Made by a program: the position numbers and the translations under genes. The notes below the pieces were generated by a model. That model was not told where the DNA came from and ran no database searches. It saw nothing but the letters and a program-made list of their open reading frames with translations. From a virus: a stretch of 40,639 bases of DNA. Location: IMG/VR virus record IMGVR_UViG_3300042294_000390, positions 1-40,639 of that record; one strand, given 5' to 3'. Below, in pieces: positions 26,218-40,073 of the stretch. Every line of letters begins with the position of its first letter. Positions within the stretch are counted from its first letter, which is position 1.

Positions 26218-28119
26218 ATGGCTGATGAAATGGATAGCGCACAACCAGCGCCACAGGGACAAAACCCGTTAGTTCAGGAATACTACAACACCACGGAAGC
26301 GCGGAAGGCTGAGGCTAAGGCGCAGATGGATAAGTTGATCCGTGCGCTTGATTCTCGCAAGAATCTTCCGTTCGACCCCATGCTGATGCGTGTAGCGGGT
26401 GCTTTGTTGCAGCCTACTAAGACAGGATCGGCTGGCGAGTCTATCGGCTACGCAGCGAGTGCTGCTGCTGATGAAGCTGAGAAGCAAGTTGCTCGTAACG
26501 CTGAGCTTGCCAAAATGGAGTTTGAGCTGGGCGAGAAGATGCGTCAGCAGCAAGCGACCGACGATCAAATGAAGTTCAGGATGAAGTATTTCGGTAACAA
26601 GCCTGCTGCTGGGGCTCCTGCTGCCGCTCCTGATCTTGCAATGCCATCACTGACTGCTACGCCGCCGGTTCCGGCTCAAGAGCTTTCTGCTGTCCCACAG
26701 ATGTCAACACCGGAAGCGCCAGCGGTCTTGCCGCAAGAGATGCCTCAAGCGGCACCACCTCCTGCCGGTGCTTTACCGCCTGCCGCACCTCCTAGTGCTT
26801 ATGTTCCGCGCCAAATTGACCCAATGCTGGCAGTCATTGATCCTGTGTCTTATGAAATAGAGATGAAAAGGAATGAGGCTGCTCGAAGAGATGCCGAATT
26901 GATCGCAAAACAAAAAGAAGCGGCTGCTAAAGAACGTGAGCAAGAGCTAAAAGAAAACTCCATCAATGTTCATGGGTTAACAGTTCCCATGACTAAAGAT
27001 GAAAGAAAGCAAGTTAATGAAGCCATTGCTAAAAAAGATTTAAAAACATTACAAAGCATATTTTTGCCTAAAGGCTCTCAATCTCCCTTCATCATAAAAG
27101 ATGATGAAGTAGTCGTCATGCCTGCTGAGGATTGGAAAAGAAAGCAAAAAGCGGCTGAAGAATTGGGTGAAATTAAGAGAACTATTCGTAATAAAACATA
27201 TTTAATGACCGGCCCTGAAGCAATTGCTCATGATGAAGCAAAACGTATGGGCGGAAAACTTTATAACGACTGGGTCAATAATTACTTCAAAGAACTTCAA
27301 GGTGGCACTGCTGGCCCAACAGCAGAGCCCGTTATTTCTGAAGAAGAGCGCACCTCTGAGCAAAAGCGTCGTGAGCGACTATCTGAAAAAAGAGGCGAGG
27401 CAGAGGCAAAGTCTCGTGATGAAATTATCTCTAATGCTAAGACTGCGGCAATTATTGAAAGACCTGCGGCTCAAATTTTTAAGATTGCGTCAGACCCAAT
27501 TAAGAGCAAAGCGCTGGGGCTTTTGGAAAACCCCACAGTATTTGACGCTATTGTTGGCGCTACAGCAGAAGGCGTTCGTGCTGGCCCCATCAATATTGGT
27601 ATCCCAGCTATTCGCGAGGCGGTTGCTAAAATTTCTGGCAATCCTAAAGAGCGTGAACAGATTCTTGATGCGCTCCAGATGTTAGGCCGTAACTACTCAG
27701 AGATTGAGTTGAACTTTACCCGTCTGTATTTAAAGGGTGAAGGTCAAGTGACAGAGGGTGAACGTGCAATTGTGAGACAGGTATCCGGCGGCGTTGCTAA
27801 CCGTAGAACGGTGGCTTTGGCGCAAACGGAAACATTGATGCAACGAGCTGCTTTTGATAAAGCGGTTAAGAGCGAATATTTACGTTGGGAGAAGGCTAAT
27901 CCCGGCAAATCAATTGATGAGTTTTCTGAGTCGGCTGGCTATCAAAAGCTGTTTAAAAACTTTGAAGACAACACCGACAAGATTTACGACAAGTATTTTA
28001 GTGAGAAGAAAGAGCCTAAAGCTGCTGAACCTAAAGCTGCGCCTTCTGCGGCACCAGCGAGCGGTGGTAGCTTAAGAGAGCGGATTGAAGCTGAGAAAAA
28101 AGCTAGAGGCCTGAAATGA
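26218..28119 (+). CDS. Large coiled-coil virion protein, probable ejection protein
   Basis: Encodes 633 residues. The N-terminal part is Ala/Glu/Lys-rich and helical; residues about 130-200 form a Pro/Ala-rich linker (PAAAPDL, PPPAGALPPAAPPS); a charged coiled coil follows; and a globular helical part (about 400-570) contains KALGLLENPTVFDAIVG and EIELNFTRLYLKGEGQVTEGER. The Lys/Pro-rich C-terminus overlaps the transglycosylase start by 4 bp. DNA here is more AT-rich than in adjacent genes, notably 26,880-27,320. The role is inferred from location between internal proteins and the transglycosylase. Confidence 0.65.
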   Translation: MADEMDSAQPAPQGQNPLVQEYYNTTEARKAEAKAQMDKLIRALDSRKNLPFDPMLMRVAGALLQPTKTGSAGESIGYAASAAADEAEKQVARNAELAKMEFELGEKMRQQQATDDQMKFRMKYFGNKPAAGAPAAAPDLAMPSLTATPPVPAQELSAVPQMSTPEAPAVLPQEMPQAAPPPAGALPPAAPPSAYVPRQIDPMLAVIDPVSYEIEMKRNEAARRDAELIAKQKEAAAKEREQELKENSINVHGLTVPMTKDERKQVNEAIAKKDLKTLQSIFLPKGSQSPFIIKDDEVVVMPAEDWKRKQKAAEELGEIKRTIRNKTYLMTGPEAIAHDEAKRMGGKLYNDWVNNYFKELQGGTAGPTAEPVISEEERTSEQKRRERLSEKRGEAEAKSRDEIISNAKTAAIIERPAAQIFKIASDPIKSKALGLLENPTVFDAIVGATAEGVRAGPINIGIPAIREAVAKISGNPKEREQILDALQMLGRNYSEIELNFTRLYLKGEGQVTEGERAIVRQVSGGVANRRTVALAQTETLMQRAAFDKAVKSEYLRWEKANPGKSIDEFSESAGYQKLFKNFEDNTDKIYDKYFSEKKEPKAAEPKAAPSAAPASGGSLRERIEAEKKARGLK

Positions 28120-29330
28120 TTGACATTGAAAAGCTCAACGATGATCAATTAAGGATTGTTGACAAGATTGAGGCCGAGGCTTCTCGTCAGGGTCTTGATC
28201 CTCGATTTGCTTTGGCAATTGCAAACATTGAGACCGGTGGTAAGTATCAACACAAGGTAGGTAAGAACGTCCTGAAGTCCCCTGCTGGGGCTTTAGGCGT
28301 TATGCAGTTGATGCCAAACACCGCAAAGTCTCTGGGGGTTGATCCGCTGGATGAGGATCAGAATATCCAAGGCGGGATTTCTTATCTCAAGCAGCATTAC
28401 GATACTTTCAAAGACCCGTACAAGGCTGCTGCGGCATACAACGCAGGCCCTAATTCTAAGTTCTTAAAGACGGGCGACTTTCAACATTTACCTCAAGAAA
28501 CTTTGCTGTACTTAGATAAGCTGGAGCAGCTCTATCCTGAGTCTGAGTTTAATAAACAAGTTTCAAGTGAACAAACTTCGTCATTGCCAGAGGTAACACA
28601 AAAATTACCTGCCTCTCTTACTGAAGACGTTCCCGAGCCACCACCTATTGATCCCAAAAGTGGTGCTTTAGTTGGCGCTGGTACGGGTGTAACAGCAGGT
28701 GCGGCTGAGACGGGTAAGAATTTATTGGAAAGACGCCGGGCGGCGGCTGCTGAGCCTGCTAAAGCGCCTGTATCGGGTTCTCCGGGACAGAAGTGGTCAG
28801 CTAAGACTGGCTTTGGTCGCGGTGAAGGTGAGACCGTCAGAGAGGTTTCTGAGGCTTTCCAGCGGGCTAAGAACAAGGGCAAGGTCTCTGGTCGTATTCC
28901 TGTGGGCGGTACTTTGAATATCCACGAGTGGGCGCGTCAGAAGGAGATGGCGGAAGAGTTGGCTCGACGCTCAGCCCTAAAAGAAGTCCCCGGTCAGGTC
29001 AGTCGAGCCCTTGGCAAGATTCCTTTGGGTAGCACTCTAGCTGGCGCTGGTGCTGGCTTAGACGTAGCGGAGACCGCTCAGCGTCTAAAGAGTGGCGACA
29101 TTGGCGGTGCTGGTATCTCTGGTATCTCAGCTTTGGGGCAGGCGGCTACGCTGATCCCCCATCCTGTTCCGAGGTTGGGTGGTGCGCTTACGGCTTTGGC
29201 GACTATGCCTGCGGACTACATTTACCAAATGATGCGCGAGAACAAAAAACGCAAGGAAAAGGGATTGCCGCCTATAACAACAATCCCCGAAGAAATTGAG
29301 TACGACCCAATGGGCAACCCCATAAGATAA
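28116..29330 (+). CDS. Virion-associated lytic transglycosylase (SLT domain)
   Basis: Encodes 404 residues. Residues about 12-120 form a soluble lytic transglycosylase domain: Glu39 in IANIETGG is the catalytic acid, followed by GALGVMQLMP (58-67), NIQGGISYLKQHY and AAAAYNAGP (104-112). It cleaves the MurNAc-GlcNAc bond without water. The rest is a Gly/Ala/Pro-rich and helical tail with a hydrophobic C-terminal segment. As last gene of the ejection-protein block it most likely opens the cell wall during DNA entry, distinct from the lysis endolysin at 14919. Confidence 0.85.
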   Translation: MIDIEKLNDDQLRIVDKIEAEASRQGLDPRFALAIANIETGGKYQHKVGKNVLKSPAGALGVMQLMPNTAKSLGVDPLDEDQNIQGGISYLKQHYDTFKDPYKAAAAYNAGPNSKFLKTGDFQHLPQETLLYLDKLEQLYPESEFNKQVSSEQTSSLPEVTQKLPASLTEDVPEPPPIDPKSGALVGAGTGVTAGAAETGKNLLERRRAAAAEPAKAPVSGSPGQKWSAKTGFGRGEGETVREVSEAFQRAKNKGKVSGRIPVGGTLNIHEWARQKEMAEELARRSALKEVPGQVSRALGKIPLGSTLAGAGAGLDVAETAQRLKSGDIGGAGISGISALGQAATLIPHPVPRLGGALTALATMPADYIYQMMRENKKRKEKGLPPITTIPEEIEYDPMGNPIR

Positions 29331-29418: not shown

Positions 29419-29635
29419 AGGGCCGCTGAGAATCTAAGCCCTTAGCGACTTCTTTGTTCATGTGCGACACGATCTCTACGCATCGTGCATGCTCTGCTTG
29501 TGATGCCCGTACAGCCACGACAGCGGCGATCTTATGGGCAAATTCGATGATGTCTACTTCAGGCGGATAGACCCCGTCTTTATCCGTGTTGTCGCAGTAG
29601 AAGAAGGTTTGGATGATGTCGTCGTTCGTTAGCAT
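29417..29635 (-). CDS. Small phage protein, unknown function
   Basis: Encodes 72 residues, last in the minus-strand operon. The sequence is acidic at the N-terminus and helical after that (IIEFAHKIAAVVAVRASQAEHARCVEIVSHMNKEV). Short proteins with a similar AEHARCVEIV helix are common in phage genomes but have no known role. It starts 4 bp after the nuclease gene stop, consistent with co-translation. Confidence 0.65.
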   Translation of the reverse strand: MLTNDDIIQTFFYCDNTDKDGVYPPEVDIIEFAHKIAAVVAVRASQAEHARCVEIVSHMNKEVAKGLDSQRP

Positions 29636-29639
29636 AGTC

Positions 29640-30404
29640 TTACTCGTATTGATTTTTGTATTGCCAGAAAGATAAGAGGGCGGTAAACATTAACCAACCT
29701 CTCGCCAGATCTTCTTCCGCCCACTCTTTGACTACCGCTAAATCGGCGTTAGTCCGAGAGACGAAGACGTTTGCACAGCGTGCCTCGGGCATCCCTAGAC
29801 CTACCCTATAAGCCGCAAGCTGCATCAGGTGCTCGTCGTAGCCGGCGACCTTAGCGGGATCGTCGAAGTCCTTCGTTTTGATGTCGATCACAATGCCATC
29901 GGTGTGCATATCGACTTTCCCGCCAAAGCCCATCTCGTGGGCAAAGGCACGCTCAGCAATCCACTTTTTAGCCCCGTAGTGGCTTTCTATCGCCTTCGTA
30001 CAGGTCTGCACATGGATTGGGAACGCTGAGGCCTTCTGACCCTCGTAGAAGCCCTGTATGGCGGCGTGTATCTCGGTACCCAGATCGGCAGCATCTCGGG
30101 CTTGGGCTTTAGAGTCCTGAACGACTCTTTTTAGCCACGCTGATTCGGTCTCGGCTTCCCCTCTTGGGAGGGTCAGGGCGGCTAGGATAGCCTGCTCCTG
30201 CAGCCAGACGTTTAGCCCCGGCTTAGCCGCGATGTTTAAGATCGTGGTGACTGAGGGAACGAGGTTGCGCTCTCTGGCATCCCGTAGGGTGGTGTTTCTA
30301 GGGGTGCCGTCTTTCTTCGAGGGGACTGTGTACATCGGATCCCCATCTCTGGTGTACCAGTGGGTACTCTCAGAAGAGTGGGGCTGTTTGGCTATAAGTG
30401 ACAT
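29640..30404 (-). CDS. PD-(D/E)XK (RecB/Cas4-like) nuclease
   Basis: Encodes 254 residues. It has the motif order of RecB-family exonucleases: GTEIH with His113, GGKVD with Asp165, VIDIKTK with Asp174 and Lys176, and QLAAYR with Gln195 and Tyr199. It probably degrades or processes double-stranded DNA ends in phage recombination or replication. The N-terminus, with SVTTILNI, fits the same family. It overlaps the winged-helix gene upstream by 35 bp, with AAAGGC as a weak ribosome site. No recombinase gene (Erf, RecT, Rad52) was recognised beside it. Confidence 0.8.
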   Translation of the reverse strand: MSLIAKQPHSSESTHWYTRDGDPMYTVPSKKDGTPRNTTLRDARERNLVPSVTTILNIAAKPGLNVWLQEQAILAALTLPRGEAETESAWLKRVVQDSKAQARDAADLGTEIHAAIQGFYEGQKASAFPIHVQTCTKAIESHYGAKKWIAERAFAHEMGFGGKVDMHTDGIVIDIKTKDFDDPAKVAGYDEHLMQLAAYRVGLGMPEARCANVFVSRTNADLAVVKEWAEEDLARGWLMFTALLSFWQYKNQYE

Positions 30405-38475: not shown

Positions 38476-38508
38476 ACGGGGTCGAGTTTTCGGAAAATGG
38501 AGAAAAAC

Positions 38509-38700
38509 ATGAATGACTTGCAAGTAATTGACAAAATAGAAAAAGACTTCAATCGGGTAGCCGACATGGCGTATGAGGAGTATTGCAGCAAGATGATTCT
38601 CATGGCTGCGATGGAGGACATCATTGAGGACGGGACTTGCTCGACGAGTATCAAGGAAATAGCTGAATACGCGATGAAACTCGTGAATGCTGAAAAGTAG
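38509..38700 (+). CDS. Small acidic helical protein, unknown
   Basis: Encodes 63 residues from ATG 38509 with GGAGA at 38499-38503 (an earlier ATG at 38497 contains that site and is less likely). It is highly acidic and helical (VIDKIEKDFNRVADMAYEEYCSK, MAAMEDIIEDGTC, IKEIAEYAMKLV). It is the last gene before the structured non-coding region that starts at 38707. No family was recognised. Confidence 0.6.
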   Translation: MNDLQVIDKIEKDFNRVADMAYEEYCSKMILMAAMEDIIEDGTCSTSIKEIAEYAMKLVNAEK

Positions 38701-38706
38701 GTAGAC

Positions 38707-39143
38707 TGACGTTTCATTGGGCAAGCGCAGTGCCTTAACAATGAGACGTCAAGGACGGCGGCTGAGCCGACTGCGTACAGCACCGAGTGGCATGGAGATC
38801 GGCTGGGCACCACCCCCGCCCCCGTAGACGGGAACTCTACGGAGAGAGTCGGTCTCCATACCAGTCGGGAAAGCGGATGCTGTGAATGCGCAGGCTGATG
38901 CGCGGATTGGATTGCGTGACCTCCTAGACTGATCTAGCGCAATTCATTTAGCAAAGCCGGAGATCAGCACCGGTCATAGACGCAGCGAGTACCGACCCCC
39001 ACACGCATGAGGATTGGGAGATGCAATTCAAGCCTGCGCCGGTTAGCCATAGGCCTAGCCGGGTACCAGTCCTCATCCGTGTTGGGTGTTAAGCCAGCAA
39101 TCGAGGATGTTGACGCAAGCCGTTTTCTGGCTTTCCGGTTTGC
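38707..39143 (+). ncRNA. Large structured non-coding RNA candidate (~440 nt)
   Basis: No credible gene covers 38701-39189, but base-paired segments fill it. P1: 38707-38719 with 38739-38751, 13 pairs including one U-G. P3: 38783-38798 with 38853-38868, 14 of 16 pairs, enclosing CCGTAG/CTACGG (38822-38827, 38837-38842). P4: GCGCA/TGCGC (38888-38892, 38899-38903). P5: 38908-38916 with 38938-38946, 9 pairs, enclosing CTAGA/TCTAG. P6: 39001-39017 with 39066-39082, 16 pairs around one C-C mismatch, enclosing 39039-39046 with 39055-39062. A pseudoknot closes the 3' end. It resembles the large ornate RNAs of phages (GOLLD, ROOL) in setting and size class, but no match can be claimed. Confidence 0.65.
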
Positions 39144-39189
39144 CTAGTTGAAGACCAAATCGAGCCCAACACCAACAGAGGAGAGAGAG

Positions 39190-39375
39190 ATGGAGAACAA
39201 GGACATCAAGATTAGCCTGCTTTACAATCTAGATGAGGTTAACGTACTATTAACCTTATTAGGTAGCTTGCCCTTCAATCAGTCAGCTCAGATGATTGCG
39301 AATATCCGGGAGCAGGCCTTACCGCAGTTACCACTACAAGAAGTTGCGACCGAGCAACCAGCAACAACTAACTAA
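39190..39375 (+). CDS. Small phage protein, unknown
   Basis: Encodes 61 residues from ATG 39190 with a strong AGAGGAGAG site just before (39177-39185); a longer TTG frame reaching into the structured region is rejected. The sequence NKDIKISLLYNLDEVNVLLTLLG, LPFNQSAQMIANIREQALPQL is a recognisable small phage protein type in which a strand and helix precede a Pro/Gln tail. No function is known. It follows the ncRNA candidate directly. Confidence 0.7.
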   Translation: MENKDIKISLLYNLDEVNVLLTLLGSLPFNQSAQMIANIREQALPQLPLQEVATEQPATTN

Positions 39376-39390
39376 TTGCTGAGACGCAAC

Positions 39391-39585
39391 ATGGATAGGG
39401 ACTTAGAGACTCGTTTTGCCGTACACGAAGCCGTTTGTGAAGAGCGCGCAAAGCATATTGCCAACAGCCTCGACAAGGGCTCAGACCGTATGCAGAGGAT
39501 CGAGTACCTGCTGTACATGGTAATGATCATGGTGCTGCTAGGCCCCGGAGCCGCAGCCGAGTTCCTAAAGAAGCTATTCGGATGA
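39391..39585 (+). CDS. Small C-tail membrane protein (XhlA-like layout)
   Basis: Encodes 64 residues from ATG 39391; a TTG five codons earlier is less likely. An amphipathic N-terminal helix (FAVHEAVCEERAKHIANSLDKG, MQRIEYLL) leads into a C-terminal membrane span (YMVMIMVLLGPGAAAEFL). This layout is shared with XhlA-type holin-associated proteins, but the gene is far from the lysis cassette. Its stop overlaps the small terminase start by 4 bp. Confidence 0.6.
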   Translation: MDRDLETRFAVHEAVCEERAKHIANSLDKGSDRMQRIEYLLYMVMIMVLLGPGAAAEFLKKLFG

Positions 39586-40073
39586 GTGAGCAAGAAAAGC
39601 CAAAGAAGCGGGCTGGTCGCAAGACCGAGTATGACCCGCTGATCGCCGCAGAGATATGCACAAGGATCTCTTGCGGTGAGTCATTACGCCAAATCTGCAT
39701 GGAAGACAGAATGCCCGTACACAGCACAGTCTATCTGTGGCTGTTGCAGAATAAGCAATTCTCAGACAATTACGCGAAGGCCAGAGAAGAGCAAGCAGAC
39801 ACCTTAGCCGATGAGATACAAGCGATTGCAGATGAGCCGCCTGCAGAGATCGTTGATGACAAAGGCATAAGCCGCACAGATAGTGGCTGGGTGACATGGC
39901 AGAAGAACCGCATAGACGCCCGCAAGTGGGTAGCCTCGAAGCTGAAGCCTAAGAAGTACGGCGACCGCCAGATCGTCGCAGGGGATGCAGAGAACCCGCT
40001 AGAGATGAAGGTAGACACCAGCGTGTTCGATGCCGTCCTGAAGAACATCGAGCTGACAAAGCAAAGCAAATGA
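39582..40073 (+). CDS. terS: Terminase small subunit
   Basis: Encodes 163 residues. The N-terminal RAGRKTEYDPLIAAEICTRISCG, SLRQICMEDRMPVHSTVYLWLLQNKQFSDNYAKARE is the helix-turn-helix DNA-recognition domain of small terminases, which bind the packaging site and pass DNA to the large subunit. The middle (IADEPPAEIVDDKG) and the helical WVTWQKNRIDARKWVASKLKPKKYG segment are standard for the family. The C-terminus is likely the ring/large-subunit interface. It implies that the large subunit lies just to the right. Confidence 0.85.
   Translation: MSEQEKPKKRAGRKTEYDPLIAAEICTRISCGESLRQICMEDRMPVHSTVYLWLLQNKQFSDNYAKAREEQADTLADEIQAIADEPPAEIVDDKGISRTDSGWVTWQKNRIDARKWVASKLKPKKYGDRQIVAGDAENPLEMKVDTSVFDAVLKNIELTKQSK

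Follow-up and report, generated by a model that had tools for sequence, protein, structure and literature searches.

Exchangeable structured RNA domains, among them a cassette with two complementary hairpin loops, in a gene-free region of a phage genome

Relation to described RNAs

Among the described systems the closest as large RNAs are GOLLD and ROOL, the latter possessing an unconserved linker that is flanked by tertiary and kissing contacts and being found near tRNA islands (PMC12286853). A first-pass annotation of the viral DNA studied here (IMG/VR record IMGVR_UViG_3300042294_000390, positions 1-40,639; this whole stretch of 40,639 nt is called the window below) had proposed a large phage RNA, perhaps of a new class and likened to GOLLD and ROOL, in a gene-free region. 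The RNA is apparently new indeed, but it is a mosaic rather than demonstrably a single large class of the GOLLD/ROOL type, and the comparison is fair as an analogy and as an analogy only. Similar to GOLLD and ROOL, which are often located near tRNA islands, the RNA is phage-encoded, long and highly structured, with likely kissing contacts and a variable linker (PMC12286853). It shows no sequence or covariance-model match to these RNAs, however, and its domains are small and swap independently into different stems. With respect to the tRNA-island location, a tRNA was found within 1 kb of the cassette domain described below in 16 of 127 cores from IMG/VR loci and in none of 105 control windows, whereas a search of the window itself for tRNA and tmRNA found none.

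Targets of RNase III in lambda RNA are known (PMC5371410, which has the paper on the N leader RNA among its references). The stem of the lambda N leader is an RNase III target. One locus, in a lambda-like phage (L010), carries a cassette on this same stem, downstream of nutL and ahead of the N start codon, with identical flanks, whereas the lambda stem tip is unrelated to the cassette. The window copy has another position, upstream of terS and with no N gene or nut site identified. The prophage RNAs STnc100 and PasD resemble the cassette in their location near lysis genes (PMC13192938), but they have other sequences and Rfam models, and the cassette does not match RF02076. The Proteo-phage-1 RNA (RF03044) is likewise a small structured phage RNA. 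In phage PS-1 it precedes the cassette by ca. 150 nt (L004:2770-2849), as a separate sequence that does not match the cassette. Purine riboswitches have a three-way layout with a helix P1 and kissing of two hairpin loops. The cassette also has a P1 and two hairpins with complementary loops, but these hairpins are separated by a hypervariable insert, a third junction strand is absent, and there is no Rfam match.

A search of the region against Rfam, GOLLD and ROOL included, gave no match at gathering scores and only chance-level matches at a relaxed E-value. Similarly, no family in Rfam 15 covers the cassette, the scaffold or the pseudoknot domain, either in the window or at the other cassette loci. 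Literature searches by exact letters and by topic found nothing relevant in open papers; a 2017 NAR survey of structured RNAs fell outside their scope and could describe it. Structured phage RNA is already known as a kind, but the cassette class and its domain swapping look new.

The gene-free region and its folding

The region begins directly after the stop codon (38698-38700) of one small gene and stops ahead of the ATG of the next, in the following surroundings:

38497-38700, plus strand: upstream small gene, 67 amino acids, no family match
39190-39375, plus strand: downstream small gene, 61 amino acids, with GGAGAGAGAG upstream and a purine-rich stretch preceding the start
39582-40073: terS (Pfam Sf6_terminase), separated from the 61-amino-acid gene by a gene for 69 amino acids

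Comparative sequence data show this region to be a coding-strand structured RNA of exchangeable domains; within its operon it precedes two small genes and terS, the gene of the terminase small subunit. Megablast of 25 kb against phages gave no match.

The helices that the first-pass annotation had paired by eye were reproduced on recomputation, with all 13 pairs in 38707-38719/38739-38751, 14 of 16 in 38783-38798/38853-38868, all nine in 38908-38916/38938-38946 and 16 of 17 in 39001-39017/39066-39082; three of these four helices contain G-U pairs. The plus strand of the 501-nt region folds at -202.4 kcal/mol (z -5.86) and none of 100 shuffled sequences was as stable, which disposes of a fold no better than shuffled sequence; the minus strand has a z of -2.70. 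When the window was scanned from end to end in 160-nt segments, the region supplied ranks 3, 5 and 7 of 506, and since ranks 1 and 2 lie elsewhere its folding energy is not unique in the window. Among other stable segments, 161-320 has a strong RNA fold (z -4.04) within the open reading frame 12-371, while 29601-29760 (z -3.23) lies at the junction of the genes 28116-29330 (plus strand) and 29640-30404 (minus strand) and overlaps the latter. The single minimum-free-energy structure of the whole region was set aside: it disrupts the conserved hairpin A of the cassette, and the fold is therefore better drawn from comparative analysis. That the region has no plausible coding frame was also confirmed. 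The longest open frame wholly inside it has at most 46 amino acids, and a conserved protein frame across the region is refuted by the insert lengths of 29-54 nt in relatives, which disrupt the frame.

Scaffold, slot and pseudoknot domain

As judged from sequence comparison, three RNA parts make up the mosaic, namely a scaffold, the cassette and a pseudoknot domain (module 3), each with compensatory changes. The covariation found in homologues of all three bears out the base-paired RNA proposed earlier, and two of the domains occur alone or in other settings in other phages. The scaffold and the adjoining stalk comprise:

38701-38996, plus strand: scaffold RNA, with closing helix 38771-38776/38980-38985, several hairpins and a slot at 38881-38981
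38707-38751, plus strand: scaffold hairpin I, 38707-38719 with 38739-38751, inner pairs compensatory
38783-38868, plus strand: long scaffold stalk hairpin, 38783-38798 with 38853-38868 plus inner pairs
39001-39082, plus strand: second stalk hairpin, 39001-39017 with 39066-39082, variable tip

The scaffold is conserved in freshwater relatives, with double changes in 12 of 57 consensus pairs (12 relatives). Relatives found via terS retain 38701-38882, and several of them also 38979-39173, at ca. 80-92% identity and without the cassette. The slot lies between AGUYGGGAAAGCGGAUGC and GCAGCGAGUACC; it holds the cassette in the window, whereas in relatives no fewer than six unrelated inserts, 29-54 nt long, occupy it. 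Apart from the slot, the relative L512 is near-identical to the window, with agreement in 197 of 206 aligned columns. Neither the scaffold nor module 3 directly matched annotated phages, and both are so far found in IMG/VR contigs only. Module 3 consists of:

39079-39172, plus strand: pseudoknot domain, whole; covariation in 19 sequences
39079-39087/39164-39172, plus strand: helix P1'
39091-39097/39127-39133, plus strand: helix P2
39115-39122/39136-39143, plus strand: pseudoknot helix, double changes in 8 of 8 pairs
39101-39104/39160-39163, plus strand: UCGA pairing

The pseudoknot domain is a second undescribed RNA class. It is present in 33 IMG/VR stretches and has a covariation score of 0.475 against 0.189 for shuffled alignments, a value reached in none of 500 shuffles (19 sequences). 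Standalone copies finish in a U-tract (L522, L523, L525, L541 and L543), so that in these P1' probably also serves as the stem of a terminator.

Architecture and covariation of the cassette

The comparative data show the cassette to be, at the level of sequence, a separately evolving RNA domain, mounted on a stem and exchanged as a whole. Its parts in the window are:

38883-38976, plus strand: TGAAT cassette, 94 nt, which forms the core of the new RNA class and comprises the AAT junction, hairpin A, the variable insert and hairpin B
38880-38884, plus strand: P1 left strand CUGUG, pairing with 38975-38979; short in the window copy
38975-38979, plus strand: P1 right strand CAUAG, seen in the sequence, with P1 covariation at class level
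38888-38903, plus strand: hairpin A, GCGC-AGGCUGAU-GCGC, double changes in 4 of 4 pairs in the class
38894-38899, plus strand: kissing strand GCUGAU of loop A, complementary to 38963-38968; CUGA/UCAG almost invariant in a loop-unbiased scan
38904-38955, plus strand: variable insert of the window copy, with its own hairpin 38908-38916/38938-38946
38956-38974, plus strand: hairpin B, GCCGG-AGAUCAGCA-CCGGU, double changes in 4 of 5 pairs in the class
38963-38968, plus strand: kissing strand AUCAGC of loop B, complementary to loop A

The covariance model matches the window at 38873-38986 with 36.9 bits and an E-value of 2.8e-7, the window itself being included in the model. Across phage loci the cassette is recognized by two islands, UGAAU ahead of the hairpin GCGC-AGGCUGAU-GCGC and the hairpin GCCGG-AGAUCAGCA-CCGGC followed by CCA; the flanks pair as the closing helix P1 and the two loops are complementary over six bases. 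The covarying set of P1, hairpin A, insert and hairpin B that defines the class is present. The insert between the hairpins ranges from 27 to more than 170 nt and is barely more stable than shuffled sequence (mean fold z -0.46), so that inserts are not uniformly structured.

Pattern scans of IMG/VR found cassettes in more than 120 stretches each; 210 distinct cores were extracted, and 66 diverse ones were aligned for covariation. In this alignment 92.1% of the cells of the named structure pair, compared with 77.8% after shuffling, and 220 cells have double changes compared with 66. The covariation score of 0.386 (shuffled, 0.115) was reached in none of 500 shuffles, and a slid alignment gave at most 0.138. 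Double changes occur in 17 of 25 pairs, including 9 of 10 in P1. Because the scan patterns preset GAAT and the loops and extraction demanded stems, the invariance of these letters and the high percentage of pairing follow in part from the search design. When no stem filter was applied (273 cores), hairpin A was fully paired in 258, hairpin B in 245, and P1 had at least six of eight pairs in 259; a scan that left both loops free still recovered AGGCUGAU in 96 of its 103 cores, and nearly all of the B loops contained UCAG. A tight-loop variant pattern gave two matches and was rejected, one of these (L431) having a TGAATGCGC..GCGC hairpin A with different loops.

Loops A and B are complementary in nearly all copies and likely kiss. 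This rests mainly on the complementarity, since the loops are near-invariant and only one compensatory change (ACUGAU with AUCAGU) was seen, besides several G-U at the outer pair. G-U exceeds A-C by 25 to 2 in hairpin A and by 31 to 13 in hairpin B, which favours RNA on the plus strand, as the first-pass annotation had argued from G-U pairs. The kissing loops are more conserved than pairing alone requires, although the stems vary freely, and this hints at a further partner. Any two such cassette RNAs could also pair in trans via their loops.

Distribution and genomic context

A sensitive blastn search of the region against annotated phages returned 130 records, all of which share two short islands at varying spacing; their hosts are Klebsiella, Pseudomonas, Escherichia (including phages P1 and RCS47), Salmonella and Erwinia. 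With the islands and the window insert as query, at least 220 annotated phage records were found. Cassette matches occur in 951 of 5,426 complete E. coli genomes, counting partial matches and E-values up to 1, and GTDB genomes with the motif are mainly Gamma- and Betaproteobacteria, with single Magnetococcales and Verrucomicrobiota MAGs.

The positions of the cassette are diverse. It is located between Q and the lysis genes in ES2, phiEt88, IME10 and an E. coli prophage, within tRNA clusters in D3, ZC03 and KP591P1, adjoining tRNAs in RCS47, and beside repressors in mEp460 and PAJU2. In the lytic phages IME11 and T765 it lies in gene-poor stretches of 2-3 kb, together with tRNAs and STnc100, respectively. 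All 22 tRNAs near cassette cores are on the same strand as the cassette. The gap to the next gene varies widely, and in some copies tRNAs come next; the ORF-based distances in IMG loci are too noisy to be firm.

The P1-like phage RCS47 harbors two cassettes (L002:2001 and 2430), the second with a compensatory GCAC/GUGC stem. In lytic Taipeivirus phages the cassette is followed at a distance of 1.3-1.5 kb by STnc100 matches (L137:3216-3430 and L005:3550-3764), and the L137 copy has GGUGAAU after the helix strand that pairs with CACCAAACA.

N leaders and competing stems

Comparison of L010 with the lambda sequence showed that its flanks are those of the lambda N leader all the way from the stem base up to where N starts, and that the cassette takes the place of the lambda stem tip. 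This type of flank is common to 18 loci, several of which are upstream of short arginine-rich proteins. The N-leader cassettes have a start codon at a distance of ca. 40 nt, and they look cis-acting.

In 27% of 165 cores, strand b of P1 has an upstream partner a whose score exceeds the 99th percentile of mismatched controls, and 44 of the 45 resulting a-b helices extend into the P1 strand, so that a and the downstream strand c would compete for b, as a switch or in a folding intermediate. In many N-leader copies a competing hairpin CCAAAG..CTTTGG was seen by eye.

Possible function

The most likely explanation, which taken as a whole we rate somewhat short of an even chance, is that the cassette would be a portable RNA domain that caps stems in phage leaders and tRNA clusters and acts via RNA processing or folding. 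Kissing of loops A and B would lock a compact fold and hold P1 closed. The cassette would cap stems in leaders and intercistronic regions and work within the transcript; which stem forms would be set by the competition between the upstream and the downstream strand for the same strand b, and the cassette may influence processing of the stem, for which RNase III, acting as it does on the N leader of lambda, is the most likely enzyme. The window copy would shape or release RNA between two operon parts. This proposal is made because of the covariation, the strand bias of G-U pairs, the precise swapping in the slot, the N leader of L010, the a/b competition, the positions between Q and lysis genes and in tRNA clusters, and the RNase III targets in lambda RNA (PMC5371410). 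The short P1 of the window copy and its location outside an N leader count against it. Because the distance to the next gene varies widely and tRNAs follow some copies, simple control of the translation of a single gene does not hold in general.

A wider reading, put forward more tentatively, is that of a very widespread undescribed system of proteobacterial phages, in which conserved stalks and the kissing cassette would display hypervariable inserts and in which units would be swapped among leaders, tRNA clusters and terminators, serving as bistable or trans-acting devices in infection, including N control in lambda relatives.

The main rival to a stem-capping domain, unlikely but to be taken seriously, is a large RNA resembling GOLLD or ROOL and acting in trans: the mosaic would be released as a stable RNA, accumulate late in infection and assemble or scaffold something, with the inserts as cargo or specificity parts. 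It draws on the co-location of cassettes with same-strand tRNAs, on the lack of conservation of the inserts, on the gene-poor stretches of IME11 and T765, and on the linker, kissing contacts and tRNA-island setting of ROOL (PMC12286853). No Rfam match to GOLLD or ROOL was obtained, however, the domains occur separately, and the proximity of N-leader cassettes to a start codon looks like action in cis. An aptamer domain for a ligand or protein, with a layout like that of purine riboswitches and strands a, b and c as the switch, is improbable. It would explain the AAT junction beside P1, the near-invariant kissing loops and the competing a-b and b-c pairings, but no Rfam riboswitch matches, the invariance of GAAT is partly inherent in the search patterns, the downstream genes share no class, and the long and variable insert stands in place of the second junction. 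It is very improbable that the cassette is a mobile DNA element with DNA-hairpin ends and incidental RNA structure: its exact boundaries and its presence or absence in near-identical phages are in line with this, but the G-U excess over A-C is strand-specific, the flanking helix P1 covaries and continues into the cassette, the slot is refilled with other inserts rather than emptied, and no transposase was found beside the cassette in the annotated loci examined. Chance structure or an undetected coding region can practically be dismissed, for although some other windows of the genome fold as strongly, covariation in three separate families already refutes chance structure and the insert lengths break any frame.

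Returning to the cassette as a stem-capping domain, an RNA domain of P1, D3, lambda relatives and up to ca. 17% of complete E. coli genomes was apparently missed by Rfam and the searched literature. Since laboratory phages carry it, its function is directly testable. The cassette also illustrates how RNA evolves when whole domains are swapped where helices end and conserved frames carry hypervariable inserts, and it neighbours tRNA genes, where GOLLD and ROOL also live. Any phage-specific role would be carried by the variable insert and the stalk tips. The upstream stalk tips in L002, L005, L017, L021 and L055, in which ARAGORN found no tRNA, sometimes have the tRNA T-loop sequence GTTCRANTC. 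Inserts are exchanged too, a given insert type being found with differing closing helices or upstream regions (L002/L003/L030, L006/L055, L011/L028 and L012/L053).
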